Source of the DNA: a virus
Virus record (IMG/VR): IMGVR_UViG_3300021378_002093
Span: 1 to 29,786 of that record
Length of the DNA stretch: 29,786 nucleotides
Direction: 5' to 3' (one strand)
The notes under the pieces were generated by a model. The model was not told the DNA's origin, did not search any database, and saw only the letters and a list, made by a program, of their open reading frames with translations. How positions within the stretch are numbered: position 1 is the stretch's first letter; every line of letters begins with the position of its first letter. Of the stretch, positions 1 to 26,022 are shown in pieces. The position numbers and the translations under genes were made by a program.

Positions 1-3000
1 CCTTCTCTGAACAATCAGGTATTTCTCTAGATGTTAGGAATACTCTAGCACCATCACCACCTGCTAATGTATCATTAATTGGGTCGTATCCACCAGGTGA
101 ACCTAAACGTTTGCCATCTTGTAAAGGATCAAACTGGCCAAGTCCTGTACCTTGAAAGAAGTTACCATCTGCGTCCGTTCCAGTTTCATCTCCAAGATTT
201 ACATAGTCGTATTCTAATGGTATACCCATTGTTAAGTCACTCGGGAATACTTTATATATACCTCTATCAATAATTTGTAAACTTGTAATTGTTCCTATTG
301 CATCAATACTGGTTACGATAAATTTAGCAACTCTAGGTGGTACACTTGAACCACTGGCTACTTTTGCTGTTGCTGTTGCTTGTAAAACCTGTCCTGTATC
401 ATTTAAATCTATTATTCTAACTACTGGTGGGTTAGTTACATCATACCCTTCACCACCGTTAACCATTAAAATATTTTTTATTCCACCATCTTGTACAATA
501 ACACTACCTGCTTTTGCACCACTACCTGGAGTGTTTCCGTCTCCAATATATACTACAATATTTGCAGTATCAGAATATCCGGCACCCGGTGCATCTATAC
601 AAATTTCTGTAATGCTACCGTAAGGATCTGCTACTGGAGTACCTCCAACTAGTCTTAATCTGTCTCCTACAGAATAGCCACTACCACCTGTTGATTTACT
701 AGATGAACTACTTGATAGTATAGAACCCTGTCCGTCACCTGCAAAACTGTTTAAAATTCCTGTAATGTTTCCTGTGGGACCATATGTTGTATAATCTACT
801 GTGGTTGCACCTACACTTGAATTACCTTGTGAGAATCCTGGCAAAACTACTGTGTTACTTGTGTCAACAACTGATTGTTCAAAGCCTCTTACAACGTGGA
901 AGTCTAAAACTTCTTTGTATACTCCACCTGCACAACCATCTCTAATAATAATTGGTGCTCCACTACAACTACTAATTCTTATAGCATCCTTTCCATTAAT
1001 TTTTGTGTCTTTTACTTCTATACCACTACCTGCAGGACCACATTTTAAAGTATTTTTAACAATTTTAGGGTCACTGCCAGGGAAAACATATTTTCTATTG
1101 TTAATAAACAGCTCATCGCCTGGTTTTACTCCAGTCAAGTTGTCCATTGGTATCGAGATACCAGGTGTAGGTTGTGTTAAGTGACATCCTACTTTAGGAC
1201 CACCAGGAATATAGTTTCCTTCTGGTGTTCTCAATAAAGGTTGTATAGAAAGATTAACATTTCTATTGAAATCTATATTATTAACATCTGGTGGTGATAT
1301 TTCTGTTGGAACTATTGAGTCTGCTGGTAAATAATCGTATGTTGGAGGACTGTCTCCTCTGTTTATAAAGTCAACTATCTCACTTCCTGGATAATTTATA
1401 ACAATATTACTGCCGTCTATGCCACTAGCACTACCTAAAATGTTTCTTACACTTGTTCCATCTGGTAAGATTAAATCTCCGCCTATTTTTTGTGCCACAA
1501 ACGATATTGCACTATCAGTTTTACTGAAATATGGGTTATTTAATTTAGTTATAAAATTATAATTATATTCTTTAACGTCTATTGCTCTTAGAGGGCTCGG
1601 TCTTAGTGGTACTTTGTCTGCAAGTGGTGTTGCAAGTGGTATTTTCTTACCTCCTGTAACTTTCTGCATGGTTGTATTAATATATTGATTGCCTTCTAGA
1701 GGAATAAACCTTCCAATATTGTTTGGTTTAACATTTTTAACTGTTTTTCTTAAAACATTTGGTATAAATCTGTATCCTGCTAAACTAGGTAGTCCTACAT
1801 CACCAAAATTGGCACTAAAGTAATTTGCAGGGTCTTTTAATCCTGCTGTTGTTACTTTTACTCCTTTAAATGGAGCCGGAATTGAATTTGCAAATCCTGG
1901 TATAATTACAGGATTAAATGGTATTTTAGGGTACGGCATAATAGGTGAAGGTGTGCCTGGAAAAGGCAATCCTGGTATACCTGATGGGAACGGGAAAGAT
2001 CCTGTTGGAGGTGGTACATAAACTGGTCCATATGTTAAAGCAGATTGTTGTTGTGCCCTCTTGACCGCGCCGCCACCGCCGCCGCCACCGCCGCCGCCAC
2101 TGCCGACACCTCCACCACCACCACCGGTGCCTCCACCGCCACCAGTATTTCCACCACCGGTACTTCCACCGCCACCTGTTGGTGTATTAATTGGTGTTTG
2201 TGGTAAACTTGCACCTGAAACTGTAGTATTTCCGTTACTTGCAGTATCACATGGTCCTGTAGTTGATGGATTTACACTAGGGTTAGGAATATTAGGTCCT
2301 ACTTTAGGATATTTTATTAAGAATCTATAAACACTACTTGTTTTATGAACTTTTATTTTAATATAATCCCCATTTGCTTTATTATATGAGAATCTCATAG
2401 CACCACCGAATTTAACACCAGTATTATTAGGTGCAGATATACCACTTACTTGGTAATTTCTAACTACACCTGAAGCAGGGCCTACATTTGTGCTATTTTT
2501 TTTCTTAGCATTTGTTAAAATTTCTTGTTTTTCAGCCTCAGTCAATACACTTAAATTCTGTGCCGCACTAGAGCTTATTAAAGCAGATTGTGTAACTTGA
2601 TCTCCTTGAAAAACTTCTATACCGTCAGCACCGCTGTACATATCAAACAGTATTTCTATTGTACCACTTGCACCAGGATTGAATAACCACTCATCACCTG
2701 TTCCATCTGCCGCATTTCCTGTTTTCCAATTTCTTGTTGATTCTTTTATAAACTCTGTTTGAACTAATCCATTATCTTGAGTAGTATTTCCTTCGTCTGC
2801 TGGTGTTGTACTTGCGGGATCTAATATTGTTGCTGTTGTAGACAGTCTTTCTGCCTTTGTACTAAGGTGGAATCCTACAGAATTCCAATGATTACTACCC
2901 CATTTTGCAACACCACTGATTGTCACTGTTTGTCCTGCAGTTACAATTAATTCATATATTGCTCCTACACCAGAATAATTACTATCTGTTTTACCTAAAT

Positions 3001-6000
3001 ATTTAGGTGTTATAGAAGCACCACCTACTGTAATAGATTTTGTACCGCCTGGACTTTTCGCCGAGTAATATGCATGTACATAGAAGGTTCCTGCTTCGCT
3101 AAATGTACAATTTAAATTAAATGTATTTCTGCTACCGTTATCAGCCCATGTGATTGCACCTAATAATGCATCTGCTGGCATGTGTCTGCTACCACCGTAC
3201 TGAGTTACTTGTCCTCTTTTAGTTCCTGTAGTTCTATAATATCCTGAATACGCATTTTGCCAAGATCTTTTACCTTTACCATTACCTGATGCACTTACAG
3301 ATATAGTACCACCATATGCTTTTGTTATATACTTCTGTCCTTTATTATTTGTAACAGTAGAGGACACAGGCGGTGGTGCAGGAGCACAAATATCACAAAG
3401 TTTAACGTCTAATGATGCAAACGCCTTTGTTGGGTCTAGTACTGGTGAACCTATGTAATCGATTCTTTGTCTAGTTCTTCCGCTACCTTTAATATCATAT
3501 AATGGAATCTGTGTGCTTGGTACAACTGTACCCATTGTTCGCCCAACTGGCTGTGGATTCTTTATTCCAAATGGTGGCCAGTCACCTGCTCTTACTCTAT
3601 GATCACCCATTATTTCGTCATCTATAGATTCACCTGGGAAACCGTATTTTAAATCGTCTTCAGTTGCAAAAGGCATGTACCCTTTTAGTGTAAGACCTTC
3701 CATATTGGGACTTCTTGGAACATATGGTCCTGATCCCTTTATCTGTGTTGCAGGCATACCTGCATAAACTTTTTCACTACACTCTATATTGTTAAGCATT
3801 GGGATAGTTAGACCTTCATCGTCAATTAATCCTCTTCTTAAATCTATTTGTCTGTTAAATTCTTCTTTAATAGATTCTGGTGAATTAACATTATTAATAG
3901 TTATTAAAGAATTATTAAGTGATATAGTACTGTGATCTAACGTTGTTAATACTGCATTAGCCTGTGACACAGAGTATGGATAAAATGCAAAAGCATTGTT
4001 CACAATTACTGTATTAGATGTCACATCACTTACTCTATACACTTGGTTATAGTATCTTGGTTCTGCTAAGTGAACTGCAATACGTTTTCCAGTATAGGAT
4101 ACATTAATACCGTGATCTACTGTTGTTGTAATTGTAATTCCTTCCGGAATAATATTACCACTTGGGGTCACATTTGCATTATAAGGTGCGTTAATAACAA
4201 ATGTATCTTTTGCCGCACTTTCTACATAATAGAATCCTGAATAAGAATTTGCAGATAACTTAATAAGTTCACCAGATGTTAAATCATGGTCTGCGGCTGT
4301 TATTTGTGTTTTACCAAATATACCATAAGATAAATTTCCGGAATCTATATTTGCTGTTACGTTTGCTTGTTCTACAGTAAACCCAGTTAAACCTACATTA
4401 CTAATTGTATGTCTTTGTGCATGTAATGGGTATTGTTCTTCAAATACAAATCCTGTAATACCTAAATCAGAATTTGTTAAATATTGATTATCAAATTCAT
4501 CTGTAAGATCTATATCTCTATTAAATATGTCTATATCAATTACTATTGAGTTATTTGCAGTATCTACTTCAGTAACAGTAAATGATGCATTATTATATGT
4601 TGTATTTGTTGCTGTTAATCTTACAACATTATTTGCGGCAACAATACCTGTACCATGCACATTAAGATTTGAAACACCAAGTTTTAATTTACCTGTATGG
4701 AATTGTGTAAGGGTAATACTTGTATTTGTAGCAGGCAAATGTGTTGCAGGTAAAACAATATTACTATCGTTAAAATAACTTACTGTACTATTTGCATTGG
4801 CATTATAAACTGCCATTTCTAAACTTTCTAACGGTATAACAGCACTATTACCTGTGTATTTTACGTTTGCAAATTCATAGTCTGGTTCTGCTGTAAATGA
4901 TAATGTCCTATTCCCTAGTGTTGTATTATTTAAATTTGCTACATTAGACTTTGTAACATACTCAACGTTACTTGTGGTAAACACTCTGTCTGTTATACTT
5001 GTTACAAAGAATTCTACTTGTTCACCATTTTGTAAAGTACCTTGAGAACCTGTTATTTGAATTATGTTACTGCCTAATATATTTGCATCTGCATTTGTAA
5101 ATGCACTAATGGCAGGCTGTATATTAGATATGCTAACTACTCTACTAGGTGCTATTGCTCCTATGTTAGCACTTATCATGTTTGCTCTACCAAAGTTAGA
5201 TATCTGTACAGATTTTCTTCTAACTATATCTTCGTTTTGCCATACTACAAATTCATCTGTTATATCAGCCTTTTTAATAACAAGACTGTAATCTAAATAT
5301 CTTGATAAATCATTTTGCAATAATTGGTTACTGTCTACATAATTAAATAAACTTCTTTCTGTATATAGGTATGCAGTATCAGTGGCATCATCCTGCTCCA
5401 CAAAAGTAACATTACCTTTGTTTGCTTGTTTTAGTTTATAAACGTTCCAATCTAAATTTTCACTCTTTGCAACATGAATAAAATCATTACCTGTAGGTTT
5501 AAATCTTATATTATCGCCAAATAACTGTGCTACTCCTCCTAAATCAAATGCACTGAAGTTTATGTTTTCTTCATTTACATAACCTGCATTAGGAAGAGGA
5601 TTGTATTTACTATCTTGTAAACCTTGATATGTTACGTTTCCTGTCTTAGGCCATAAATTACTTTCTCTTATACCGCTAGGCTTCTTGAGAAATCTTGAAG
5701 TGTCATCTATATCAATTAAAATAACTTCATCATCTTTTGCATCAGGTGTTATTTCAAAAATTCTTATACTCTTTACATGTACTGCTATATCATCATTTGT
5801 TGTAGCCTTAACATTTAATGTGCTACCTGGTAAATCACCTTGGTATGTATCTTGTAAATCTATAGTTGCTCTTTCTACAACATAAACATTGGACCCTGCT
5901 AGAATCTCACCGTCAGGTAATAGACCTACATTTGGGAATGTTATAGTAGTTGTGTTTGCTACTTGATATCTAGTTTCATATCCTGGGTTATAAATTTTTG

Positions 6001-9000
6001 TTCCGTTTACATAAACATCAACAAAAGGATAATCGCCATCGTATTCTGTGATATTGTTAGTATCGAAAGATGTATTCGCGTTTACAATTCCTGTGCCTAC
6101 TGTATAACTTACAGAACTATTTCCAGTTACAGATGAAGGTGCTGTAATTTGCCATCTATCACCTGCATCAAATACAAAATCAGATCCTGATAAGTTTACA
6201 TTGTCAACTGAAACAACAATATTTGAACTTACTGTATTGTTTGCAACATTGAGAGCATATCTCTGTCTTGGTTGATATCTACCTGCTGTGATATTTAAGT
6301 TTGCTAGTGTACTAGAACTTCCACCAATAGTAAAATCATTACCTGATATTTTTAATCCTTTGTTAATTATTACGTTACTACTATTCGAAATATAATTTTC
6401 TATTGTATGTGCTGTAATGTTAGCATTAATTGTTGCATCTGAATTAATTGCTGTAGTAATATTTGCTACATCTGTTATCGAATTTAAATTAAATGAAGCA
6501 GTAGCACCAAAATTATCTGCTATAGTAATTGTACCTAAAGAATTTATATTAGCATTGCTTGTACTAAGAACATTACCGTTTATATCTTGTGTGACAGATG
6601 TTATTGTATTAGTTGATCTTGCATCTACTTTTGCTAATATGGATGATACATTTCCTATATTTAATTCACCAGTAATAATTGTTAGTCCAGGAGTGTCAGT
6701 ATATCCTGATCCTTGTTCAGTAACATTTATAGAACTAATTACACCATTATTATTCAGTACGGGTGTTGCTTTTGCCTGTGTTCCGTTAGTTGATTGTGTA
6801 ATTAAAATTTCTGGTACATCAAAATATTGGTGTTTTGTATTTAATACATCTATTTTATCTACAACACCTGTTGTATCTTCAGGGAAGGATAACGTAAATA
6901 ATTGCGGGTCCTGTACAAAATCTTTTTTCTCTAATGCTAATTCAACACTTTGATTATTTTCTAAATCACCAAATGAACCGACCTTAACTGCCCACTCATC
7001 ATAAATGTCCATGTTGCCTTGAATAATAGAACTGCTTCTTCCTATTCTGCTTAAACTTGTTTTAGTACCTTTATTTTGTATAAATCCTTTATAGAATTCA
7101 AATTGTTGATCATCATCTATTTGTAATTCTGCAAGATAATCTTTTTCCTGATAACCAAATAAATTTCTAGCAGTTTCATATACTTGTTTTTCAACTGGTA
7201 TAAACCCTAATTCATGATATCTACCCATGCTTTCTGCAAGGTTATCTAAGTTAGGTTTAAGTGAATCCCCTTGTATTAGGAAACCTTCACTTATAAATCT
7301 ACCGTCCCAGTTAGCAGTTTTATTACCTTTAATTCTAATTCTTGATTGTCTTTGATTATACAAAGGATTATATAAAGTATCAGCAAAGTCTGTTACATTG
7401 TCTAATACCATTGCATGTTCTATTTCTCTCACAAATAAACATACAGCATAAATTTCTTTTCCAACTGGTGGGGTGATTTCTATTTTTAAATCTTCTCTGT
7501 TTATTGAACATTCTTTAGGATTAATAGATCTACCGTCTTTGTCCATAATATTAAACATATTAAATTCATTACGTTTAATTTTTGCAACAAATCCTTTTGA
7601 AGTTTCAAATGTTACCTTAGTTGCCATAGGAGATAATTCTAAAGTATTGTCTGTTTGCCAATTACCTTGTAGCCAGAATAAGAATTGTTTTGCTGAATAT
7701 ATCCAGTCTCTTGTTTCATTAATGCCTATATCATATTCACCAAAAGTATATCCCATGTATTTCTGATATCTACCTAACGAAATTAAGAAATTAAATACTT
7801 CCTGTTCTGTTTTATAAACAGTTTCATATTCTACTTTTTGTAAAATGCCTGTTGTGTCTAAATATACTGCGCCTTCTTTAAAATTAATTTGAGGTAATTT
7901 ATTTAATTTCTTATAAAGTAATTGAGAAAAAGTTACTGCTTTAGGGATATAATCTTTTGCTTCATAATACACATCATTATATTCTACAATAGTGCCTTTA
8001 TTATATGATGTATTTGGTTGCCACCTTACAAATGGATGTGCTTCGCCCCCTACTTGTACTTTCTCAGATCTACCTGTTACATCACTTTCTAATATTTTAA
8101 AGTGTCCTAAGTTTTTATCATAACCACTAACTTTATATCCATTAGTAACTTTTTGTATAATAACACCCTGATAAATGTTTCTTGATTTGTATGGCGAATT
8201 ATGTATATCTACTGTGATATTTTCTTGTGGAATAATTAAATTTGTACTGCTACCTGTAGTACTAAACTGATCCATAGACATTGTCATTGTATCTTTATCA
8301 ATGTAGCCGGAGAATCTGTAACCTAATTTAACATTTAAATTTCTTAATTTATGAACAAAATTATTTACAACATCAAGTCCCTGAAACTTTAACCAACTGT
8401 TAATAAATTGAGTGTAACCAATATTGGTTATCATGTTTCCTTCAGAATCTATATCACCGTGAATATGGAAATGATCAGGATCTCTAAACATCCAATTTTT
8501 TCTTGTTGTTTTGTTTATATATTTTTTGTAATTTGCTGGTGCTTTTGTAACCTTTGTGGGGTCACTGAATACTGTAGCAAATTTACCTGGATTGGATAAT
8601 ACTAATAATTCGGCTATTGCAAAAGGATATCCTTCACTGTACTTCCATGCATTTTCTACTGGGGCACCATCACCAAATTTCCATGGTCTATCCAAATCAA
8701 CATCTTGACTAATAGTTTTATTAATAACTTTTTCGCTCTTTTTGGCGTACGTTGCCAGAGAATCTGTTGGTGCTGTACCATTTTTGTTTGTATCTATATC
8801 TAAAACTGTATTTACAAATACACCTGACCAAGTTAAAGGATCACCATCAAATGTTGCTGTACCACCGCCTACTGCGTATGGGAACATTGGGATACCTGTG
8901 TCGTCTATAGTTGCTACATAATATCTTATTGCTGTACTAGGAGAATCAGGGGTATAACCGTATCGTGTATTCCATCTATCTGCATAACCGTTTGTACCGG

Positions 9001-12000
9001 CATTTCCGCCTAATTCATAATCCTGTACAAATTCTCCTGTGGGTGCTCCTTTAGGTCCTGTAGTTCTAGTACCTGATTTTAAAACAAATCCACTTTTAAT
9101 ATTTGTAATTGCTGATGAACTATCCATAGGATCTGTGTAACCATATGGGCCATAAATTGGTAATCCATCAAAAGCCCAACCTATAATACCTGAATGAGTT
9201 GAACTATCTCCCCATACGGAAGTAGTAGTCATATTAGATGTTGGTATTGCTGTATAAATAAGACCGTTTTCATCTGTTTGAGCAATATCTCCGTTTGCTC
9301 TGCTTTCGGCTGTCTCGAATCCTAATTCATATGTCCATGTGTCGTCATATTCATATGATGTAGATATAGGACTATGTAAAGGTAATCCGTTTACTAATAT
9401 TGCACAAGCACCTTCTACCATACCGTTATTTGCAGTTGCTTCTTTACCTGAACTAATTGCATTGTAATCAACATTATTAGGTAATCTATAAGTTTTTGCA
9501 AAAAAATCAAATTCTGTAGGTGATAATGTATGGTCTATTAATCCTCTACTGTAATTTGGATTATCATAACTAGTAATGTATCTATGAGTGGAATCAAATT
9601 GTACACTTAAACCATCTGTGGAAAGGAAACTTGTTGTTTTGTATCCTTGTGAGGTATCTGGTTCTGTTTCGACCCATCTGTTTTTTAATGTACTTACACC
9701 AGTGCTTACAATATCCACAGGTTTTTTTAGATTTCCGTTTTCATCAACTGGTAAATATTCAAGTAAATTTATTCTGGTGTTTCTAGACTTTCTACTATAT
9801 GGATTTAAAAAGTCCTTCCATATATCGTTAGTTAAATTTTCTCTAGGTCCTTGTCTAATAATACCCTTTTCTAAATCAGACCACATAGGAATATTTTTAC
9901 TACTGTAATCTGTGTAAGTTGTAGTAATGTATTGGCTATCCCACCATGAAGGCTTTTTAAAGAAAGCCAACATTTCCCAAGGATGTGTATGAGGTCTTAC
10001 TGTATCGTAATAGTATTCGTACCAGCCTCTCCAGTGTCCAGGAATTATACCATCACCTGATTGTATACTACCGCTAGTGAATTGTTGACGATAGTTCCAA
10101 GTCCATTCATTGGTATTATCATAATGTTCATTTACTATAGGATCAACTTTGTTTTCTATTACCCAGTTTTCAAAATTTGTTTGTAATAGATCATGATATA
10201 GATCCCATTCTGGTTTTTCTCGTCTCCATCTACCTTGTCTAACTTCTATAGCATCTAGTTCTGGATATTCAACAGTATCTCTGAACTCCGATTTTGCACT
10301 ATTATAGATTCGTTTTTCAAATTCTAATACAATTTGATCTCTGTCGTCGCCGTATACAGGCGTTCTACTGCCGTCGTGACCTACTAATAAGTTTATTGGA
10401 TCTTGAAAAGTGTCGTCACTGATTATCTCTGGAGTATGTAATGGGTATAATCCCATTGTACTCGGGGTCGGTGGGCACTCAACACTATCTCTGTCTTCAT
10501 TATAAATTTTAAATTCTAGTTCGTCTAATAGTTCCGGAGTATAGTTTTTAAATTTAACTGTTAGTGGACTATATGTTAATGTGTAGTCTTCTCCCACAGT
10601 CATTAAAGTTTTAATATTATTTCTTGTATAGTAAACTAAAAGGCTGTTTTCTACTTTATCTAAATCTACTGATGTAGATACTGTATATGATGCTAACGTA
10701 ACATCATTTATAATTAAAGATTCTTTGATATAGTTATCACCAAACGGTAATATGTATGTTTCTCCAAATACGTTTCTACCTATACTAAATGAGATTAAAT
10801 TTCTTAAAACCTTTTCTAATATTTCTTCGTTTGAGAAATCGTTAAAATTTACTATATTATAATAATCGTCTAGCTCTTTAAAAAATCTTTTCTTATATTT
10901 TTTATATTCACTACCATTAAATCTTAAAGCATCAATTATATTATGCGGTTGATCGTCAAGTAAAAATGCACCTAAAATTAAATCTGTATTGGATTGAACT
11001 ATATCTACGCCGTATAATTCTTCTTTTACTAAACTGTTATAATTATTTGTACTTAAGGCATCACCTGTAAATCCGGGCTGTGTCTCAATATAGTTTTTAA
11101 AATGTGGTAAAAATTCAGGTTCTGAAATTTTTTCAACTTCTTCTTTAAAAGGATTATTAGTCCATGCTATAGGCAATTCGTGCCTACTTGTATTATTTAT
11201 TGACTTATCAAGTCCTCTGGAAAAAACTGATATTTCAAATATATCACCTACCACAAAGTTCTTTCTTAAAATTTCTATTTTATCACCGTTTTGGGTATCG
11301 TTTATAAAAGTGAAATCATGGAATAAATCTCCATTTTTTCTAACTCTTATATTCATACCACTTAAATATGTTTCGTCAACCCTTGCATTACAACCAAGGC
11401 TAAATATTTGATCGAAATTATCATAAATTGTTCTAGTGATTTCTATTATTTTTTCTATTCTTTGCTGGCTCTTCCATTGTGGGCTTTTAAAGTTATTATG
11501 AAATACTGGAGTTTTTCCTATAATTGCTGTAAGTCCAGAAGTACCGGTACTGTCGTTAGATGTTTTTTCAACAGATCTCAATAATTTATAATAGTAATAT
11601 CCCTTTATGTCAGTAGATTCTGAACTACCTAAAACAATGTTGTTATAAGTTTCTGTTTCCATAAAGTTTTCAAAACTTATTTCACTAGCATTCTTAAATG
11701 ACCTGTATGCTAATGATAAATTATATTCTGCATCAGCAGTTCCTGTGCCTATTTCAAAACCAAATATTTTATTTCCCCTAAAGTTATTGCTTGGGAAAAT
11801 TGTGGTATCTCCTAAATAACGTTTTTGATCATCATATAGATTAAATAATGGTGCTTGATTTAATTTAGATTTAGTTTGTGATTCTATTAAGCCGTTATTG
11901 TAGTAATACTCTTTACCTATTTGTGAAAATCCTGAGGACACAAATACTGTGTCTCCTTCTGTTAATGTAGTGTCTACACTTAAACTTATTGCATTGGAAA

Positions 12001-13033
12001 GCGATGAATTAGCCACTGTTGCTACATAAACATTTGCTGAAACAGAACTATCGTCGTTAGGGAAAATAATTTTTGTTCCTGTGGTTATAGTTACTGTATC
12101 AATAGCAACATTACTTGCATCTAAACCTACGACTTCACTGTAAAGTAATGTTGAGCTTACATCTACATTTCCTTTACTTGTTTGCCCTACATTATATAAT
12201 TCTAAATCTCTGTCAAATTCTAAAATAGGCCTTCTAGCTCTGTAAATCTTTGATGGAACGTTATCACCTGCATCTTCAAAGTTTTCTTTGTGATACCAAA
12301 AGTTAGTTCTACTCCAGACATTTTTGTTTGCTGAGCCTCTACCTATTACAACATAGTCTTTACTTGTTTGTGGATTAGCAATACCGTTAGCATAACTTAC
12401 ATCAACTGCTACAAGAATTATGCTTTCTCCTACGCCTTCTACTATAAATTCCTTCCCAACATATTTGGAATTGTCAATTACATAATCACCCGCAAAGGTA
12501 ATTTTCATACCATTTTTAAACAGTTTACCTCCTGAAGGTGTATAGGATTTCTTACCTACTATGTCCTTATCAACATTTATTGTGTTTGATGAAGTACCAG
12601 AAATAGATATTGCTGTAGGACCAGTTGTGCTCCAAAAGTATTCTTGATAATTTAAAAATTTATTTAATTCTATGGGAGGTAAAAATGTCTGAAACTCAGA
12701 TCTCAACCATTGGTTTTGTTCATTTACATCTACGTTATAATTTTTAAGGATGTTTATAAATTCATCATAAAAAATAAAATTTTCACTTACGCCTGTATTG
12801 GCATTAGTATTATTAACTGTTGGTGCTAAATTGTAATATTTTTTATCGAGGTCATCTTCATATATCCAAGTACCATCTACAAGTTTATCCTTAGATGTTT
12901 TTTTACCTACAAAACCACTTACTGCTTCTATATTTGCTTTGCTGTATAATTGTTCTACTGTGCTTTCAAAGAAATTCTTTACTGACTCAGTCTGCAGGAT
13001 TCCGGGTAACTTTTTATAAATTTTATCTGCCAT
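1..13033 (-). CDS. Giant virion structural protein with YHYH-like domain (3' end outside window)
   Basis: I translated the minus strand from the ATG at 13033 to the left edge and met no stop codon, giving at least 4,344 codons. The product begins MADKIYKKLPGILQTE. It starts 2 nt after the gp6 stop, with no clear Shine-Dalgarno, so translational coupling is likely. Visible parts, in order: an N-terminal region rich in Trp, Tyr and acidic residues with a PHTHPWEM motif (Met about residue 1021); a YHYH-like domain (GWAFDGLPIYGPYGY, residues 1285-1299); long Asn/Thr/Val-rich beta-type stretches (about 1900-3200); a CDIC motif just before a Pro-rich turn (about 3215); a run of 36 mostly Gly codons (3620-3655); a Pro-rich segment; a Cys-containing region (about 3950-4035); and several GxGY repeats near the left edge. 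The place directly after gp25 and gp6 in a late operon points to the baseplate or tail fibre. T4 has gp7 and gp8 after gp6, so the N-terminus may stand in for gp7, but I see no convincing gp7 motif. Confidence 0.85.
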   Translation of the reverse strand, partial: MADKIYKKLPGILQTESVKNFFESTVEQLYSKANIEAVSGFVGKKTSKDKLVDGTWIYEDDLDKKYYNLAPTVNNTNANTGVSENFIFYDEFINILKNYNVDVNEQNQWLRSEFQTFLPPIELNKFLNYQEYFWSTTGPTAISISGTSSNTINVDKDIVGKKSYTPSGGKLFKNGMKITFAGDYVIDNSKYVGKEFIVEGVGESIILVAVDVSYANGIANPQTSKDYVVIGRGSANKNVWSRTNFWYHKENFEDAGDNVPSKIYRARRPILEFDRDLELYNVGQTSKGNVDVSSTLLYSEVVGLDASNVAIDTVTITTGTKIIFPNDDSSVSANVYVATVANSSLSNAISLSVDTTLTEGDTVFVSSGFSQIGKEYYYNNGLIESQTKSKLNQAPLFNLYDDQKRYLGDTTIFPSNNFRGNKIFGFEIGTGTADAEYNLSLAYRSFKNASEISFENFMETETYNNIVLGSSESTDIKGYYYYKLLRSVEKTSNDSTGTSGLTAIIGKTPVFHNNFKSPQWKSQQRIEKIIEITRTIYDNFDQIFSLGCNARVDETYLSGMNIRVRKNGDLFHDFTFINDTQNGDKIEILRKNFVVGDIFEISVFSRGLDKSINNTSRHELPIAWTNNPFKEEVEKISEPEFLPHFKNYIETQPGFTGDALSTNNYNSLVKEELYGVDIVQSNTDLILGAFLLDDQPHNIIDALRFNGSEYKKYKKRFFKELDDYYNIVNFNDFSNEEILEKVLRNLISFSIGRNVFGETYILPFGDNYIKESLIINDVTLASYTVSTSVDLDKVENSLLVYYTRNNIKTLMTVGEDYTLTYSPLTVKFKNYTPELLDELEFKIYNEDRDSVECPPTPSTMGLYPLHTPEIISDDTFQDPINLLVGHDGSRTPVYGDDRDQIVLEFEKRIYNSAKSEFRDTVEYPELDAIEVRQGRWRREKPEWDLYHDLLQTNFENWVIENKVDPIVNEHYDNTNEWTWNYRQQFTSGSIQSGDGIIPGHWRGWYEYYYDTVRPHTHPWEMLAFFKKPSWWDSQYITTTYTDYSSKNIPMWSDLEKGIIRQGPRENLTNDIWKDFLNPYSRKSRNTRINLLEYLPVDENGNLKKPVDIVSTGVSTLKNRWVETEPDTSQGYKTTSFLSTDGLSVQFDSTHRYITSYDNPNYSRGLIDHTLSPTEFDFFAKTYRLPNNVDYNAISSGKEATANNGMVEGACAILVNGLPLHSPISTSYEYDDTWTYELGFETAESRANGDIAQTDENGLIYTAIPTSNMTTTSVWGDSSTHSGIIGWAFDGLPIYGPYGYTDPMDSSSAITNIKSGFVLKSGTRTTGPKGAPTGEFVQDYELGGNAGTNGYADRWNTRYGYTPDSPSTAIRYYVATIDDTGIPMFPYAVGGGTATFDGDPLTWSGVFVNTVLDIDTNKNGTAPTDSLATYAKKSEKVINKTISQDVDLDRPWKFGDGAPVENAWKYSEGYPFAIAELLVLSNPGKFATVFSDPTKVTKAPANYKKYINKTTRKNWMFRDPDHFHIHGDIDSEGNMITNIGYTQFINSWLKFQGLDVVNNFVHKLRNLNVKLGYRFSGYIDKDTMTMSMDQFSTTGSSTNLIIPQENITVDIHNSPYKSRNIYQGVIIQKVTNGYKVSGYDKNLGHFKILESDVTGRSEKVQVGGEAHPFVRWQPNTSYNKGTIVEYNDVYYEAKDYIPKAVTFSQLLYKKLNKLPQINFKEGAVYLDTTGILQKVEYETVYKTEQEVFNFLISLGRYQKYMGYTFGEYDIGINETRDWIYSAKQFLFWLQGNWQTDNTLELSPMATKVTFETSKGFVAKIKRNEFNMFNIMDKDGRSINPKECSINREDLKIEITPPVGKEIYAVCLFVREIEHAMVLDNVTDFADTLYNPLYNQRQSRIRIKGNKTANWDGRFISEGFLIQGDSLKPNLDNLAESMGRYHELGFIPVEKQVYETARNLFGYQEKDYLAELQIDDDQQFEFYKGFIQNKGTKTSLSRIGRSSSIIQGNMDIYDEWAVKVGSFGDLENNQSVELALEKKDFVQDPQLFTLSFPEDTTGVVDKIDVLNTKHQYFDVPEILITQSTNGTQAKATPVLNNNGVISSINVTEQGSGYTDTPGLTIITGELNIGNVSSILAKVDARSTNTITSVTQDINGNVLSTSNANINSLGTITIADNFGATASFNLNSITDVANITTAINSDATINANITAHTIENYISNSSNVIINKGLKISGNDFTIGGSSSTLANLNITAGRYQPRQRYALNVANNTVSSNIVVSVDNVNLSGSDFVFDAGDRWQITAPSSVTGNSSVSYTVGTGIVNANTSFDTNNITEYDGDYPFVDVYVNGTKIYNPGYETRYQVANTTTITFPNVGLLPDGEILAGSNVYVVERATIDLQDTYQGDLPGSTLNVKATTNDDIAVHVKSIRIFEITPDAKDDEVILIDIDDTSRFLKKPSGIRESNLWPKTGNVTYQGLQDSKYNPLPNAGYVNEENINFSAFDLGGVAQLFGDNIRFKPTGNDFIHVAKSENLDWNVYKLKQANKGNVTFVEQDDATDTAYLYTERSLFNYVDSNQLLQNDLSRYLDYSLVIKKADITDEFVVWQNEDIVRRKSVQISNFGRANMISANIGAIAPSRVVSISNIQPAISAFTNADANILGSNIIQITGSQGTLQNGEQVEFFVTSITDRVFTTSNVEYVTKSNVANLNNTTLGNRTLSFTAEPDYEFANVKYTGNSAVIPLESLEMAVYNANANSTVSYFNDSNIVLPATHLPATNTSITLTQFHTGKLKLGVSNLNVHGTGIVAANNVVRLTATNTTYNNASFTVTEVDTANNSIVIDIDIFNRDIDLTDEFDNQYLTNSDLGITGFVFEEQYPLHAQRHTISNVGLTGFTVEQANVTANIDSGNLSYGIFGKTQITAADHDLTSGELIKLSANSYSGFYYVESAAKDTFVINAPYNANVTPSGNIIPEGITITTTVDHGINVSYTGKRIAVHLAEPRYYNQVYRVSDVTSNTVIVNNAFAFYPYSVSQANAVLTTLDHSTISLNNSLITINNVNSPESIKEEFNRQIDLRRGLIDDEGLTIPMLNNIECSEKVYAGMPATQIKGSGPYVPRSPNMEGLTLKGYMPFATEDDLKYGFPGESIDDEIMGDHRVRAGDWPPFGIKNPQPVGRTMGTVVPSTQIPLYDIKGSGRTRQRIDYIGSPVLDPTKAFASLDVKLCDICAPAPPPVSSTVTNNKGQKYITKAYGGTISVSASGNGKGKRSWQNAYSGYYRTTGTKRGQVTQYGGSRHMPADALLGAITWADNGSRNTFNLNCTFSEAGTFYVHAYYSAKSPGGTKSITVGGASITPKYLGKTDSNYSGVGAIYELIVTAGQTVTISGVAKWGSNHWNSVGFHLSTKAERLSTTATILDPASTTPADEGNTTQDNGLVQTEFIKESTRNWKTGNAADGTGDEWLFNPGASGTIEILFDMYSGADGIEVFQGDQVTQSALISSSAAQNLSVLTEAEKQEILTNAKKKNSTNVGPASGVVRNYQVSGISAPNNTGVKFGGAMRFSYNKANGDYIKIKVHKTSSVYRFLIKYPKVGPNIPNPSVNPSTTGPCDTASNGNTTVSGASLPQTPINTPTGGGGSTGGGNTGGGGGTGGGGGGVGSGGGGGGGGGGAVKRAQQQSALTYGPVYVPPPTGSFPFPSGIPGLPFPGTPSPIMPYPKIPFNPVIIPGFANSIPAPFKGVKVTTAGLKDPANYFSANFGDVGLPSLAGYRFIPNVLRKTVKNVKPNNIGRFIPLEGNQYINTTMQKVTGGKKIPLATPLADKVPLRPSPLRAIDVKEYNYNFITKLNNPYFSKTDSAISFVAQKIGGDLILPDGTSVRNILGSASGIDGSNIVINYPGSEIVDFINRGDSPPTYDYLPADSIVPTEISPPDVNNIDFNRNVNLSIQPLLRTPEGNYIPGGPKVGCHLTQPTPGISIPMDNLTGVKPGDELFINNRKYVFPGSDPKIVKNTLKCGPAGSGIEVKDTKINGKDAIRISSCSGAPIIIRDGCAGGVYKEVLDFHVVRGFEQSVVDTSNTVVLPGFSQGNSSVGATTVDYTTYGPTGNITGILNSFAGDGQGSILSSSSSSKSTGGSGYSVGDRLRLVGGTPVADPYGSITEICIDAPGAGYSDTANIVVYIGDGNTPGSGAKAGSVIVQDGGIKNILMVNGGEGYDVTNPPVVRIIDLNDTGQVLQATATAKVASGSSVPPRVAKFIVTSIDAIGTITSLQIIDRGIYKVFPSDLTMGIPLEYDYVNLGDETGTDADGNFFQGTGLGQFDPLQDGKRLGSPGGYDPINDTLAGGDGARVFLTSREIPDCSEK
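411..690 (-). repeat. GxGY-type short protein repeats in the giant protein
   Basis: Three neighbouring segments share a pattern of hydrophobic beta strand, Gly-x-Gly-Tyr turn, then a second strand: GGSGYSVGDRLRL (about 650-690), ITEICIDAPGAGYSDTANIV (about 545-620) and ILMVNGGEGYDVTNPPVVRI (about 411-487). A fourth copy lies far away at about 6668-6760 (SINVTEQGSGYTDTPGLTI). The pattern looks like a short repeated beta unit of phage adhesins or structural proteins. I infer structure only, not ligand. Confidence 0.55.
2069..2176 (-). repeat. Poly-glycine-coding GC-rich repeat inside the giant protein
   Basis: Thirty-six codons, residues 3620-3655, are almost all Gly (GGC, GGT or GGA) with scattered Ser, Thr, Asn and Val. 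On the plus strand this reads as imperfect ccgccaccgcc repeats. It is a sharp GC-rich island in an AT-rich gene. Structurally it should be a flexible linker between the beta-rich body and the Pro-rich segment that follows. Low-complexity DNA of this kind often varies in length between relatives through slippage. Confidence 0.85.
8850..9430 (-). other. YHYH-like domain inside the giant protein
   Basis: Roughly residues 1200-1395 of the giant protein follow the order of the YHYH family (Pfam PF14240 type): an ILVNGLPLHSP segment, then THSGIIGWAFDGLPIYGPYGY (G of GWAF at residue 1285), then a closing stretch with YYVATIDDTG and MFPYAVGGG. The GWxxDGxPIYGPYGY core is the hallmark of that family and is well preserved. 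The naming Tyr-His-Tyr-His motif, expected upstream of the core, is not visible; the corresponding place reads NGLIYTAIP. A HFHIHG motif lies further downstream, at about 8460. Such domains occur in large structural proteins of marine T4-like phages, but their role is not established. The boundaries are approximate. Confidence 0.7.
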
Positions 13034-16000: not shown

Positions 16001-17202
16001 AAACCAAATGTAAATGTTAAAGTAAATGATCGTCCTGAAGCATTTACATAAGGAATACTAGCATTTAAACTTTTAGCATCATCTGGATGTATAGTGTATC
16101 TTTCTCCATCACTAATTCTGTGCCATATTCTAAAAATACCTGTAGGCACATTACCAAAATTACCATCAGGAAACTTTACTCTTATGCCATCATTGTTTAA
16201 ATTTTCTACAGCATATAAATTTCTAGTGTTTAGTGCTTTACTGTTATAGTTTAATGTTTGTCCAACAGTATTTGGTATCTTGGTCCATTGATTTTGCACA
16301 ACACCTTGTGTATTGACTTCCTGAATATATACATCAGTTTCGTTTATATTTTTCTTTACAATGTCTTGAAATCTGTTTTGTAAGGGAGTTTCATAATTGA
16401 AGTCTTCGAATGCTAATTGCCCTTGTTTAAATAATAAGAAAAATCCTGTATTATTACTGGATAAACCTAATCCATCATTTCTATAAAAAAGTCCAAAGTC
16501 ATTTGTTGGGTCAGGTTGTTTTTCATAAAAATATTCATTGTCAAAGAAATCACCATTTACTATTTCAAACTGTCTTGATACTCCGTTTACATTTATAGGA
16601 AAGGATAAAGCAAGTGGAGATGTTATAGGGGTATTAAGTTCGTATTGGTCTGTGTTTATGCCTGCAACTTTTCCTGATTTAACAGGCGCCGAGAATCTAT
16701 TTGTTGTTCCCATAGCCGCATTAAGAATTGTTATAAATTGTTCGTAACTCTCAGGGTTATTAGAATCGTCCCAAAAAATGTTTTGGTTTGATAATTGATT
16801 ACCCTGGCTATCAGTTAAAGGTTCATTTGTTTTTACAGCAGTGATTTTCATTAATCCACTTGCAGGAATATTTCTTTTAGGATTGTATCCTAACATTCTT
16901 GCTAGTTTAAATACAGAGTCTCGTCTTTCTGCTGTTTCTAAAAAGTTTTCTCTAGTATTAACATCCATTCTAAATGCAATACTTGTACTCAAAAATGCCA
17001 ACAATTCTATAATTGCAATGAATTCTGAACTTTCAATATAGTCGTTAAAGTTTTCTGGAAAATTTACTCTGACATATTCGACAAGACTTGTTCTCATTGT
17101 GTCGAAATCATATGCTTGGAAGTCAACTTCACTAAAGGCCTTATATGCAACCTTCCAGTCTTCTGCCGCAAATAAATTAGATTGTCTATTAACGTATGCC
17201 AT
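13036..17202 (-). CDS. 6: Baseplate wedge subunit gp6, enlarged
   Basis: This 1,388-aa protein matches the T4 gp6/baseplate J-like family at both ends. Residues about 20-130 contain the N-terminal helices (RTSLVEYVRVNFPENFNDYI, ELLAFLSTSIAFRMDVNTRENFLETAERRDSV, ARMLGYNPKR). The last 110 residues have the family's closing pattern (IKTKVIKAFNKYF, NFYFTELSSYVHQQLSGI, IVIIPKISSGNFGDLFQI, ESNEFF). T4 gp6 has about 660 residues, so roughly 700 extra residues, rich in Asn, Thr and Ser and beta-like, lie in the middle (about 500-1150). In T4, gp6 forms the dimeric ring that ties the six wedges together around the hub. The ATG shares one base with the gp25 stop (TAATG), with AGAGGAAAC as ribosome site. 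The giant protein follows 2 nt after its stop. Confidence 0.85.
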   Translation of the reverse strand: MAYVNRQSNLFAAEDWKVAYKAFSEVDFQAYDFDTMRTSLVEYVRVNFPENFNDYIESSEFIAIIELLAFLSTSIAFRMDVNTRENFLETAERRDSVFKLARMLGYNPKRNIPASGLMKITAVKTNEPLTDSQGNQLSNQNIFWDDSNNPESYEQFITILNAAMGTTNRFSAPVKSGKVAGINTDQYELNTPITSPLALSFPINVNGVSRQFEIVNGDFFDNEYFYEKQPDPTNDFGLFYRNDGLGLSSNNTGFFLLFKQGQLAFEDFNYETPLQNRFQDIVKKNINETDVYIQEVNTQGVVQNQWTKIPNTVGQTLNYNSKALNTRNLYAVENLNNDGIRVKFPDGNFGNVPTGIFRIWHRISDGERYTIHPDDAKSLNASIPYVNASGRSFTLTFTFGLESSVNNSLPAESLQNIKSKAPQTFYTQNRMVSAQDYNVFPLSQSSNILKLKATNRTHAGHSRYIDINDPTGTFQSVETYTEDGYLYKDNDPVSKEVIVSDNNTPAEVVDNTIVEFLKDQRLNNVIYDTLREKWSNFIPTKFAIDTLNIRWKPLPVANQSTTGYMTETFSSSNAVVMVNNTASTKVFQENTFVKFVDPTNIANYKWVRITGIQNNGALSSGLSTSIGPWTLSDSVNSDWRADEVITSLRKSFTTSEQTEIESALANKSTFGIGFDLTDQSFYIISNADLLKTGSIGIQNAKDKTLSGVDNSWLMLFEFFPIDSSSYRYNVSIRGLSYVVQSANDLKFYNVKSVKVTDNTTQAVRDTITFNTLNYKPGVTESFVWADSNSDNVADAWQSLDNSAYYDPNGLRTNIALRTRDIKWFDVNVTWQSTFGLMRNDLLSDPHSVANISTANRFVNAANVSLNPYFDDGNVSTNNVTLSNNDGRISRLPSNLTIDFDNTTFGYNILDDNGNITYKQYNNNTGLTEIYHGNASIFTYGINGASGNASEIGRTFLSNANATAQTGRLTYNQLDDNYHLFATDTTGAISRDKILVEYKSAKDRLDTDIVYEIRDVFKYSDGYTDNRKVKVAPVDSDSDLVPDKPFQFNEFVSSTDLIIFANYTDFDGYVYDKPVSGVILDWRGETDWDNTQASGSPATISPISYSDPVEWSTVDYIIVDTLALAEKFENTANQYFGIKIYVVENEKFYIMTRSSTDANSISLVETTDCFVKTGRGKDQNTRLPDVRPCVMKWDHKAPNDVRIDPSISNVVEMLVLTTSYYTEIQKYLNVSGTTFPLAPTSDELANEFQSLDGFKNASDTLVYKSAKFKRLFGADADESVQAKFRVVKLAGTTLSDNEIKTKVIKAFNKYFDVNNWEFGENFYFTELSSYVHQQLSGIIGSIVIIPKISSGNFGDLFQIQAESNEFFVNTAKVTDIEIIDKITKNTLAN

Positions 17203-17579
17203 TATAAAGTTTCCTCTGCATTTCTTTTACTGAATTCTAAAAATAAAGTTTCTGCTTGGTCTATATTATAATATCTCAATATTACTTCTGCTCTTATAGT
17301 TTGATCGTTTATATATAAAATTGTTTCTTCTAACGTAACTCTAGGATCTAAATCTACAATTCTTTTGATATCTTCTTTTATGTCTTCTTCTAATGATGGT
17401 GTTTCCGGCTCCATTAACAAATCCCAAATTATACTACCAAAATTAGGCCTCATTACTCTTTCACCTTTTTTAGTATAAAAATGATTAAGTAAATCTCTCT
17501 TTATAAGAGCGGTATCTGTAAGGGTATAAGGTGCCCTATTTTTATCTACAGTACTGAATCCTCTGAATAACGTTGCCAT
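17202..17579 (-). CDS. 25: Baseplate wedge subunit gp25
   Basis: A 125-aa protein of the gp25/GPW (lysozyme-like fold, non-enzymatic) family, close to the usual length (T4 gp25 has 132 residues). Diagnostic stretches: MATLFRGFSTV at the start, LIKRDLLNHFYTKKGERVMRP, then FGSIIWDLLMEP, and a DPRVTLEE segment. In T4 it joins gp6 and gp53 in the wedge core and helps initiate the sheath. I chose the ATG at 17579; an in-frame TTG 15 nt upstream lies inside the predicted late promoter. No Shine-Dalgarno precedes the ATG. The late motif ends immediately before it, so the mRNA may be leaderless. It is first gene of the late operon 25 - 6 - giant protein, and its stop overlaps the gp6 ATG by one base. 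Confidence 0.9.
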   Translation of the reverse strand: MATLFRGFSTVDKNRAPYTLTDTALIKRDLLNHFYTKKGERVMRPNFGSIIWDLLMEPETPSLEEDIKEDIKRIVDLDPRVTLEETILYINDQTIRAEVILRYYNIDQAETLFLEFSKRNAEETL

Positions 17580-17592
17580 GTAAGTATTTATC
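17580..17592 (-). promoter_or_regulatory. T4-type late promoter for the 25-6-giant operon
   Basis: On the minus strand the sequence is GATAAATACTTAC, directly followed by the gp25 ATG. The first eight bases differ from the T4 late consensus TATAAATA only in the first base. In T4 this element lies at about -13 to -6, which places the start of transcription on the A of the ATG. The same 13-mer with one change recurs at 25033-25045, also at the head of a structural operon. It should be read by RNA polymerase carrying gp55. Confidence 0.75.
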
Positions 17593-17657: not shown

Positions 17658-18266
17658 ATGAAAAATGTGATTTACTTACACGGAGCAAATGCAGACCCTG
17701 ATAACTTTAATTACTATACATTAAAGATGCCAGAACATCCTTTTTTTGCACCTGCTTACGATATGGAACAAGACCCGTATGATTTAGTTGAGCATGTCAG
17801 AATGCAAAAAGAAAGAGAATGGGGTAAGGGCAAAGTAGTAATTGTAGGACATAGTTTTGGTGGTTTATTAGCAAGTTGGTATGCTAGTGTTTACCCAAAC
17901 AAGGTTGATCACTTAGTTACCATTGCAACACCATGGCAAGGTACGCCAGTGGCTAGAATACTTGCTATGATTTTTAGAAATAGAAAAGTATTTGAAAACA
18001 CCAAGCCTGGCGCAGATGTACTAAGACTCCTACAAGAAAAAACTTATACAGGTAAGCATACTAATATTGTTTGTACCGGTAGTTCTAATCCTTTAGCAGG
18101 GTTAGGCGGCCAAGCAAATGATGGTATGATATCAGTTTCAAGTCAATCTTCCACACCACCTAAGTTCAAAAATACCGAGAATGTTTATATAGAAGCAGGG
18201 CATAGCGGTGTTTTGTTAAATAATGATGTAGCAGACTTGTTACAAAAAATAATATTCGAGAAATAA
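17658..18266 (+). CDS. Lipase/esterase-like alpha/beta hydrolase
   Basis: A 202-aa protein with the alpha/beta-hydrolase layout: strand then oxyanion-type IYLHGA (residues 5-10), nucleophile elbow VGHSFGG with Ser66, a TIATPWQGTP segment (88-97) typical of lipases and PGAP1-like esterases, candidate acid Asp155 in ANDGMISVSSQ, and catalytic His182 in EAGHSGVLLNND. All three expected catalytic residues are present, so it is probably active. There is no signal peptide or membrane segment, so it should act in the cytoplasm or at the inner membrane after infection. It lies on the strand opposite to the structural operons around it and has its own sigma70-type promoter. The substrate is unknown: a phospholipid, an acyl ester or a small-molecule ester are all possible. 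It is not part of the core T4 gene set. Confidence 0.8.
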   Translation: MKNVIYLHGANADPDNFNYYTLKMPEHPFFAPAYDMEQDPYDLVEHVRMQKEREWGKGKVVIVGHSFGGLLASWYASVYPNKVDHLVTIATPWQGTPVARILAMIFRNRKVFENTKPGADVLRLLQEKTYTGKHTNIVCTGSSNPLAGLGGQANDGMISVSSQSSTPPKFKNTENVYIEAGHSGVLLNNDVADLLQKIIFEK

Positions 18267-18267: not shown

Positions 18268-18465
18268 ATGACACAATTAAAATCTTTAAACAATACTTTA
18301 GAAGAAGAATTAAGAATTATGCTTGTAAATAAAAACAACGAGTGTGCTTCTTTAAGAGCTCATATAGAGTTATTGGAAAAAGCAGTTGCTGAAGAGCAAG
18401 AGCAGAAGTACAGATTGCTTGTAGAAAATATGGATTTAAAGAATACTTTAAAAGAAAATACCTAA
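18268..18465 (+). CDS. Small coiled-coil protein, unknown function
   Basis: A 65-aa, Leu/Glu-rich protein starting one base after the hydrolase stop (TAATATG), so the two are surely co-transcribed. Leu, Ile and Val recur with a heptad-like spacing (for example LRAHIELLEKAVAEEQEQKY), predicting a single helical coiled coil. A lone Cys lies near residue 26. It has no signal peptide or membrane segment. Its last 18 bases overlap the 3' end of the lysozyme-like gene on the other strand. It could be a partner or dimeriser of the hydrolase, or an early host-interaction protein; no family is recognised. Confidence 0.6.
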   Translation: MTQLKSLNNTLEEELRIMLVNKNNECASLRAHIELLEKAVAEEQEQKYRLLVENMDLKNTLKENT

Positions 18466-19047
18466 TTTATTATATGCTCTCTTTTTAGCGAGTTTTAATA
18501 TTGCTCTCAATTCCGCAAAGTTCAAGTTTCTTTGAGCCGGATACAATGTTGCTTGTACGTTGTCTAACTCTGCTTGCCAGTTCAAATGATCAGGAGTAGA
18601 AAAAAGTTCTGCTTCATACTTTCTTCTATCCATATAGTCTGTTCTAATTTGTGGTCTACTAAATTTTCCTATTTTACCAACCCTAAATCTCTGCATTAAT
18701 TTAGGTACTGCTTCGTATTTTCCCCTATTGAGAGCGGCCAAGCATAGGCTTTTGGCAAAATTGTCTACACCAATATGTGAAACAAAACTTGCAAGAGCCC
18801 CCATTTGATTTTGATTCAGGGGCACTTTAACTAATTTTGTAATATCCTTTATTGCCTGTTTGAGATCAGATTCCAATGCCAGTCTTTCTGCATTAGGACC
18901 TAGTCCGTCTATAAACTCCACAAGTTTGTAACCTGTCTTTCTATCCACGTAAATTAAACTGGGACCATCTATGTATAAATCTATACCTTTATCAGAAAGT
19001 CTGGTCCTTACATTTTCAAATATATTTGTAGTACCATATCTAGGCAT
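18448..19047 (-). CDS. GH24 lysozyme-like protein, probably non-catalytic
   Basis: This 199-aa protein resembles the C-terminal half of phage GH24 endolysins: LNQNQMGALASFVSHIG (77-93), FAKSLCLAALNRGKYEAVP (97-115) and RRKYEAELF (141-149) follow the order of the family. The N-terminal half should carry the Glu-8x-Asp-5x-Thr active site (Glu11, Asp20, Thr26 in T4 lysozyme), but I cannot find it: the region reads FENVRTRLSDKGIDLYIDG. In T4 the baseplate lysozyme is an inner domain of gp5; here a related domain directly follows gp5 as its own gene. It starts inside the gp5 stop (TAATG), with GGAGG of the gp5 tail as ribosome site. It is last in the operon and converges with the coiled-coil gene. 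It may be a structural remnant of the tail lysozyme. Confidence 0.65.
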   Translation of the reverse strand: MPRYGTTNIFENVRTRLSDKGIDLYIDGPSLIYVDRKTGYKLVEFIDGLGPNAERLALESDLKQAIKDITKLVKVPLNQNQMGALASFVSHIGVDNFAKSLCLAALNRGKYEAVPKLMQRFRVGKIGKFSRPQIRTDYMDRRKYEAELFSTPDHLNWQAELDNVQATLYPAQRNLNFAELRAILKLAKKRAYNKLGIFF

Positions 19048-25161: not shown

Positions 25162-26022
25162 ATGGCACAGCCAAAGAAGGTTAATTACCTTAACAACAAA
25201 GACATTCTAAAAGAAATACACAAAAGTAAGATGACTTACTGCTATGTAGCAGACGACAAATACGCAGGTTTTGACGTAATTTTAGAAGATGTTAATAAAA
25301 TCAATAGAAACAGTATAAAGGTTGCTAGAGAAAACAGAGCATCACAAATACAATCAGCAGGATATCAAGCCGCAATGGCATTACATGATCCTAAAGATTA
25401 TAAAAATAAACCCAAGCAAAAAGAATTTGCAATAGATCCTAAAAGCATAGACCAAGAAGATTTAGTTTTTAGAGTTATGGATATGGAACATATTCCATTA
25501 GAACCAGGCAGAAAGAAGAATCCTAGGAACGAAGCAGAAACAAAAGCAAAGGTAAACTTCCCTCCTTTCAAACATTATGCATTTATAGGCGGCGAAATTA
25601 AAGAAGTTGCTAGAAGTCATTGGCAAGGAAGTTTAAGTAACGGTGAGTTTTGTGTAGATCATGGAAGGATTACAAATAAGTTAGGTACTATGTTTTTAAA
25701 ACTTGTTGAAAGGTACAGCCACAGAGCAAACTGGCGTGGTTACACTTATGTAGACGAAATGCGTGGACAAGCATTGGTACAGTTATCTCAGATTGGATTA
25801 CAATTTAATGAAGCAAAATCCGATAATCCATTTGCATATTATACTGCCGCAGTTAATAATAGTTTTACAAGAATTTTAAATTTAGAAAAAAGAAATCAGA
25901 TGATTAGAGATGATATCTTAATCGACAGTGGACATTTACCAAGTTACGGTAGACAGATTAAACACGAAGAAGAGATGCGTTTAATTAGAGAATCCGCACA
26001 ATCTGAAAATTCACAAGACTAA
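25162..26022 (+). CDS. 55: Late transcription sigma factor gp55, with long N-terminal extension
   Basis: The last 110 residues carry the gp55 signature: KLVERYSHRANWRGYTYVDE (180-199), ALVQLSQIGLQFNEAKSDNP (204-223), FAYYTAAVNNSFTRILNLEK (224-243) and RNQMIRDDIL, the counterpart of sigma region 2 that reads the TATAAATA box. Gp55 directs host RNA polymerase to late promoters. The protein has 286 residues against 185 in T4, with about 130 extra, charged N-terminal residues (KKVNYLNNKDILKEI, a Lys/Pro-rich stretch 81-90, PGRKKNPRNEAETKAK) of unknown role. I see no obvious hydrophobic-acidic clamp-binding tail like that of T4 gp55; it ends SAQSENSQD. The ATG at 25162 follows GAGGAGAG; an ATG 4 bases earlier is out of frame. 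Gene 47 begins 3 bases after its stop. Confidence 0.9.
   Translation: MAQPKKVNYLNNKDILKEIHKSKMTYCYVADDKYAGFDVILEDVNKINRNSIKVARENRASQIQSAGYQAAMALHDPKDYKNKPKQKEFAIDPKSIDQEDLVFRVMDMEHIPLEPGRKKNPRNEAETKAKVNFPPFKHYAFIGGEIKEVARSHWQGSLSNGEFCVDHGRITNKLGTMFLKLVERYSHRANWRGYTYVDEMRGQALVQLSQIGLQFNEAKSDNPFAYYTAAVNNSFTRILNLEKRNQMIRDDILIDSGHLPSYGRQIKHEEEMRLIRESAQSENSQD

Follow-up and report, generated by a model that had tools for sequence, protein, structure and literature searches.

The IMG/VR record IMGVR_UViG_3300021378_002093 is a viral fragment of 29,786 bases, and the window that we analyzed is this whole fragment. On the minus strand, 4,344 codons run from an ATG at position 13033 to the edge of the window without a stop codon. 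A sequence-only reading had proposed that this frame encodes a very large tail component, perhaps a fusion of wedge and fibre functions, in an operon where it follows gp25 and gp6 and sits at the position of gp7 and gp8 in phage T4. Is the frame a single gene, how long is its product, and what could such a protein do in the baseplate? The 4,344 codons are the front three-quarters of a virus-tail protein of roughly 5,600 residues. The features that we discuss are listed in Table 1.

Table 1. Features of the giant gene and its upstream neighbors (window coordinates; aa, residues of the giant protein unless stated otherwise)
Feature	Position	Strand	Basis or remark
Giant baseplate-region structural protein gene	2..13033	-	ATG start; 4,344 codons shown; 3' end beyond window
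Conserved scaffold, N-terminal part (aa 1-490)	11564..13033	-	Alignments A1/A5; AF2 model
Conserved scaffold (aa 560-720)	10874..11356	-	blastp with PA5oct, Atu_ph07, Phosso, SCTP-2
Domain similar to the N-terminal fibre-attachment domain of T7 gp17 (~aa 770-850)	10484..10726	-	Foldseek, hhalign
Conserved scaffold (aa 853-1121), family signature RPHTHPWEM	9671..10477	-	blastp, alignments
HTHPWEM (aa 1015-1021)	9971-9991	-	Family signature
YHYH domain (aa 1198-1375), insertion	8909..9442	-	Pfam PF14240, E = 4.1e-19
Best-conserved scaffold block (aa 1447-2133)	6635..8695	-	Alignment A3
Candidate CBM family 5/12 module of chitin-binding type (aa 1671-1696)	7946..8023	-	Pfam, PDB profiles, Foldseek
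KGT motif QxFYxGxIxxKGTxxS...EWA (aa 1976-2015)	6989..7108	-	Present throughout the family
Expansion slot (aa 2180-4344), lineage-specific insert between scaffold halves	2..6496	-	blastp slot lengths
Gly-rich linker (aa 3619-3657)	2063..2179	-	Same place, different sequence in close relatives
Three GxGY repeats (aa 4117-4200)	434..685	-	Sequence
gp6-type baseplate wedge protein, 1,388 aa	13036..17202	-	PHROG 10646, E = 0; PHROG 219, E = 1.6e-21
gp25 baseplate wedge protein	17202..17579	-	Pfam GPW_gp25, E = 2.4e-10; likely start ATG 17579 (125 aa)

Extent and neighbors of the reading frame

From base composition alone, we estimate by hand that the chance of a stop-free run this long is about 1e-146. 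In a codon comparison with five relatives, dN/dS over the giant frame was 0.09-0.15, and pN/pS was 0.09-0.38 across all of its 400-codon blocks. Since purifying selection acts on each block, the whole frame is maintained as a single protein. The contig is metagenomic and the gene is cut at its edge, as might be seen with an assembly chimera or with read-through of a pseudogene. We consider that reading to be refuted, with a negligible chance of being correct: selection is seen in all of the blocks, and the same frame is present on the separate contigs of relatives.

Because the record contains only the window, we took the stop of the giant gene from relatives. The gene is closed at both ends in G003 (5,645 aa), G004 (5,568 aa), and G005 (5,613 aa). 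By alignment, residue 4344 of the window protein corresponds to residues 4404, 4328, and 4321 of these proteins, respectively, and the frames of the close relatives end 1,240-1,292 codons past the position of the window edge. Projecting from these relatives, the full-length window protein would have ~5,585-5,635 aa, or ~620 kDa. The frame of at least 4,344 codons from the ATG is therefore borne out by the open reading frame itself, by selection, and by the closed relatives. The search for its stop succeeded in part: the closed relatives supply an end, but the window's own record stops at the edge.

Other members of the family are longer still. G014 encodes 7,914 aa (874 kDa) and G007 encodes 7,548 aa (832 kDa); in both, the frame is bounded by stops on either side and the sequence contains no N. 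In 28 further contigs from IMG/VR, the frames around a shared motif reach 7,915 codons. Al-Shayeb et al. 2020 (PMC7162821) reported huge-phage proteins of up to 7,694 aa, some of them tentatively annotated as structural, so size alone is not new. Those giants resemble ours in size class and, in some cases, in their structural annotation.

Just two bases separate the stop of gp6 from the ATG of the giant gene, and, with the matches to GPW_gp25 and PHROG 10646 (Table 1), this confirms that the giant gene follows gp25 and gp6. The order gp25-gp6-giant is common to PA5oct, Atu_ph07, GAP32, CBB, Phosso, and Vibrio 2.275.O, and a gp6-type frame directly precedes the giant in the relatives from IMG/VR. 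Salicola phage SCTP-2 is an exception: its giant is at 128-139 kb and its gp6 is at 231-235 kb, or ~90 kb apart, so the adjacency is not absolute. (The gene ahead of the giant in SCTP-2 is itself 3,096 aa; see L004:6606-27397.)

The surrounding genes have some features of their own. At 1,388 aa, the gp6 homologue is twice the size of T4 gp6 (660 aa), and the gp6 homologue of Vibrio 2.275.O is annotated with a CBM5/12 domain. T4 gp5 appears to be split into a hub-type protein (19047-21104, minus strand) and a separate lysozyme (18448-19047, minus strand), and this is seemingly the case in GAP32 too. An alpha/beta-hydrolase gene (17658-18266, plus strand; 202 aa; Pfam Abhydrolase_1, E = 1.2e-11) lies on the opposite strand within the baseplate operon, with the lysozyme on one side and gp25 on the other. 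A few bases upstream of the ATG of gp25 is GATAAATA (17585-17592, minus strand), which is close to the T4 late-promoter sequence. The window also encodes a gp55-like late sigma factor (25162-26022).

The conserved body, its slot, and inserted modules

The match of the window protein to PHROG 10938 ("virion structural protein") has E = 2e-250 and consists of three stretches over the conserved scaffold; all 41 members of alignment A5 match this PHROG as well. Homologues include PA5oct gp355 (3,857 aa), Atu_ph07 gp180 (4,449 aa), GAP32_230 (3,341 aa), and proteins from SCTP-2 (3,807 aa), Vibrio 2.275.O (3,771 aa), and Phosso (4,555 aa). A degenerate-pattern scan of viral contigs in IMG/VR identified at least 598 relatives. 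The window protein is not unprecedented: it is a new addition to a family of giant structural proteins that is widespread, though little studied. It shares its scaffold family and its gene position with the PHROG 10938 proteins of PA5oct, Atu_ph07, GAP32, and CBB (CBB_236). However, these jumbo-phage homologues have 3,341-4,555 aa, while the relatives nearer to the window have 5,568-7,914 aa and a longer slot.

Homologues of this protein have been found in virions. In CBB, the gene that comes next after gp6 is CBB_236, a homologue of the giant; mass spectrometry of virions detected 21 unique peptides of its product, for a coverage of 7.72% (PMC5259590). The record of PA5oct gp355 also notes ESI-MS/MS. 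These data uphold the proposal of a very large virion component encoded in the baseplate operon. PHROG 10938 carries the category "head and packaging," but this is probably a mislabel, as the gene order points to the baseplate.

Alignments of the family show a large conserved scaffold with invariant Trp, Pro, and Gly. Its first part (aa 1-490) has a helical start and the motifs 'NYxxYxW' and 'RGSxxxNxWSRxNxWYHK'. The AF2 model of the N-terminal region has pLDDT of 80 and pTM of 0.71, and the same N-terminal fold is found in the structural protein of Atu_ph07 (E = 1e-55). The second conserved half lies beyond the window edge, at 4646-4967 and 5063-5182 of G003 (blastp with distant homologues), so most of aa 2180-4344 of the window protein is a slot between the two halves of the conserved body. 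As estimated with blastp, the slot has ~200 aa in GAP32, ~330 in PA5oct, and ~1,540 in Atu_ph07 and Phosso; it has ~2,550-2,600 aa in G003-G005, ~2,950 in G001, and ~3,500 in G002 and G014. Searched with tblastn, the window's expansion matched none of 50,697 phage records. Pfam gave nothing convincing for the C-terminal half of the relatives, and in PDB profile searches with the N-terminal, middle, and C-terminal scaffold, the only match was to the chitin-binding module.

The sequence-only reading had described the protein as a mixture of features. HTHPWEM, YHYH, a Gly-rich run, and GxGY (four sites, at aa 2108, 4117, 4150, and 4194) are all present, but the Cys-containing region is unremarkable (the window protein has 16 Cys in 4,344 residues). 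Nor is the mixture peculiar to this protein, as other family members also have HTHPWEM, the CBM, and YHYH.

Besides the slot, the protein has two candidate modules and a YHYH domain. First, Foldseek matched the N-terminal model to fibre chains from T7, PhiM1, Kp9, and E1004 with probabilities of 0.9-1.0, but with E values of 0.04-0.6. The hhalign comparison to the N-terminus of T7 gp17 gave 18.4 versus a maximum of 13.5 in 40 shuffles, with a probability of only 3%. The position that we give for this fibre-type domain comes from the profile alignment and not from Foldseek, and a Pfam search at the domain gave no match. (A different insert, a domain shared with PHROG 677 or "baseplate wedge tail fibre connector," is found in aa 174-278 of L083 and in a further 16 members of A5, where it separates the N-terminal helices from the RGSxxNxWS motif. 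It was not detected in the window.)

Second, the CBM5/12 module (PF02839) scored 24.1 bits in the window (E = 3.6e-05), which is below the cut-off of 26.2. Pfam matched this module in 36 of 49 family members at E ≤ 0.1, with a best E value of 1.2e-11; the PDB profile matches in this region had E = 0.0013. By Foldseek, the model of the module resembles chitin-binding domains (probability 0.98-0.99, rmsd 1.8-2.9 Å), and the matches include a chain of the receptor-binding complex of phage Milano and a baseplate protein of an Anabaena contractile system.

Third, the YHYH domain (PF14240) scored 69.7 bits versus a cut-off of 25. It is present in 22 of the 49 family members. The relatives nearer to the window that we examined carry this insertion, unlike the homologues from PA5oct, Atu_ph07, and GAP32, from which it is absent (blastp). 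Iyer et al. predicted that phage YHYH domains are metal hydrolases with a metal site formed by a His triad plus an Asp (PMC7824862). If this held here, then the domain would be a tail-associated enzyme, and the fold is indeed recognized at E = 4e-19. However, a motif alignment shows that the histidine motif was lost in the window protein, in G001, and in G003-G005, where an IYTAIP-type sequence takes its place and HS...AFDG is the only part that survives. (HYH is still present in G002.) Given the loss of the motif, we set aside a catalytic role as improbable. Because the motif is replaced in the window, a binding or structural role for this domain seems more likely.

The suggestion of a wedge/fibre fusion is thus supported in part: candidate domains of the T7-fibre N-terminal and CBM5/12 types, and a YHYH domain, lie within a protein at the wedge position.

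Comparison with gp7 and with the cyanophage giants

Is the giant a form of gp7? Like T4 gp7 (1,032 aa), it is encoded after gp6, and it may share a KGT-type motif, but we found no significant similarity of sequence, or of structure with two models. Comparing T4 gp7 to our profiles A1, A4, A5, and A6 gave hhalign probabilities under 1%, and there was no PDB profile match. Using hhalign, we found no similarity of four scaffold profiles to T4 gp6-gp12, and no similarity to gp8 with scaffold profiles that included the C-terminal half of the relatives. gp7 was not among the best 50 PDB matches from Foldseek for either the N-terminal or the middle model. The middle model is of middling quality (pLDDT of 71 and pTM of 0.50), and pLDDT is only ~60 in the KGT region. 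The homology to gp7 or gp8 that was first suggested is not supported so far by sequence profiles or by the two structure models. In particular, comparing the N-terminal region to T4 gp7 by profiles and structure did not reveal gp7; the only similarity, which is weak, is elsewhere, at KGT.

This KGT motif is a possible equivalent of the 'DFYsxKGTxxS' motif of gp7 from T4 and cyanophages. The sole alignment between the A4 profile and a cyanophage gp7 profile falls on the motif, scoring 31.9, whereas 60 shuffles reached 25.1 at most. For a wider gp7 profile, hhalign gave 27.7 versus at most 26.3 in 80 shuffles. (Full-length or scaffold-wide profile alignments missed KGT; motif-centred and deeper A4 profiles aligned on it.) However, the hhalign probability of the match is only 3-28%, and the spacing differs (FYxGxIxxKGT in the giant versus DFYxxKGT in gp7). 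We view the similarity as suggestive and not as membership. The identity of the giant with T4 gp7 is not established; the short KGT motif alone hints at it.

The claim that marine T4-like phages have giant proteins at the gp7 position was correct. P-HM1 gp7 is annotated with 4,446 aa, and cyanophage proteins at this position range from 1,942 to 4,446 aa (L047, L048, and L051-L056). Their N-terminal region matches residues 677-813 of T4 gp7 (hhalign probability 84-85%; PDB profile E = 5.5e-5), and the match runs through the DFYsxKGTxxS motif. The KGT domain is near the N-terminus in the cyanophage giants, as opposed to residues 677-813 in T4 gp7, which suggests that the gp7 core was relocated in the cyanophage proteins. 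In pelagimyophages and cyanomyophages, gp7 was described as being replaced by VrlC (PMC7029224). The match to T4 gp7 suggests that the cyanophage proteins at the VrlC position keep a piece of gp7.

The cyanophage giants (P-HM1, S-CAM1) resemble the window protein in gene position, size, and GxGY repeats, and their YHYH domain is 39-46% identical to the window's. But their N-terminal scaffold cannot be aligned with the window's, and the significant match to T4 gp7 is theirs only.

The scaffold of the window protein might nevertheless be a true orthologue of gp7 that has changed too much to be recognized; aa ~1976-2015 would then be its KGT domain, comparable to that of the giant gp7 of cyanophages. 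This would be a sharper form of our best explanation (below). The gene position is the same as for gp7 of P-HM1 and S-CAM1, the KGT motif is exactly where the best match to the cyanophage gp7 profile lies, and this motif links cyanophage gp7 to T4 gp7. Set against the low hhalign probabilities, the narrow difference from the shuffles in the wider test, the different spacing, and the lack of a structural match to gp7, this leaves orthology at somewhat under even odds.

Proposed role in the baseplate

We propose that the frame encodes a giant baseplate virion protein of a jumbo myophage, from the PHROG 10938 family, which combines a wedge body with host-contact arms. We estimate a probability of about 60% for this reading. 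It would account for the family match, the synteny, the mass spectrometry of virions for homologues, the selection, the slot map, and the modules. Also, the cyanophage protein in the same position is a homologue of T4 gp7 and is likewise giant. Against the proposal are the lack of significant homology to gp7 in sequence or structure, the location of the SCTP-2 giant away from gp6, the "head and packaging" category of PHROG 10938, and the middling second model. We did not find a prior description of the giant as a wedge component in the literature that we searched.

For phage A-1(L), the structure of a wedge heterotrimer like (gp6)2-gp7 has been determined (PMC10966104). Judging from its gene position, the conserved body of the giant would be the third subunit of the wedge, seated on the gp6 dimer in the role that gp7 has in (gp6)2-gp7, and the virion, in which homologues are seen, would probably have six copies. 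The slot and the inserted modules would project as outward arms. Given the modules that they carry, the arms may bind surface polysaccharide weakly and repeatedly, and they may hold or replace fibres. They might also pass a contact signal to the wedge, and so to the baseplate switch and sheath contraction. If the slot faces the host, this would explain why it grows and shrinks between lineages.

Instead, the giant could be a peripheral protein of the baseplate or fibre network that is unrelated to gp7 and came to occupy its place in the gene order, with the third wedge subunit encoded elsewhere. No gp7 fold was found with the two models, the fibre-type, CBM, and YHYH modules are present, and adjacency to gp6 is lost in SCTP-2, all of which would fit. 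However, the position right after gp6 is kept in nearly all lineages, and a large scaffold with invariant Trp/Pro/Gly exceeds what an adhesin needs. We consider a peripheral role to be unlikely, though a serious competitor to the wedge body with arms.

We also put forward, tentatively and as something we would bet against, a more specific idea: that one chain of up to 7,914 residues (874 kDa) serves both as a wedge subunit and as the receptor-contact arms, by means of a hypervariable slot (from ~200 to ~3,500 residues) in the conserved wedge body.

What we add is the projected length and the map of two halves plus a slot, together with the loss of the YHYH motif, the candidate modules of fibre and chitin-binding type, and a weak link to gp7. 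The T4 baseplate is about 6 MDa. Six copies of a ~620 kDa protein would come to ~3.7 MDa, which is of the same order as that whole baseplate. The map describes a huge, widespread, and little-studied virion protein as a two-part body with one slot and separable sugar-binding modules, and it raises the question of whether jumbo phages build the wedge and the host-contact arms as one chain. If so, these would rank with the largest known phage virion proteins, and lengthening the slot would change the contact with the host.
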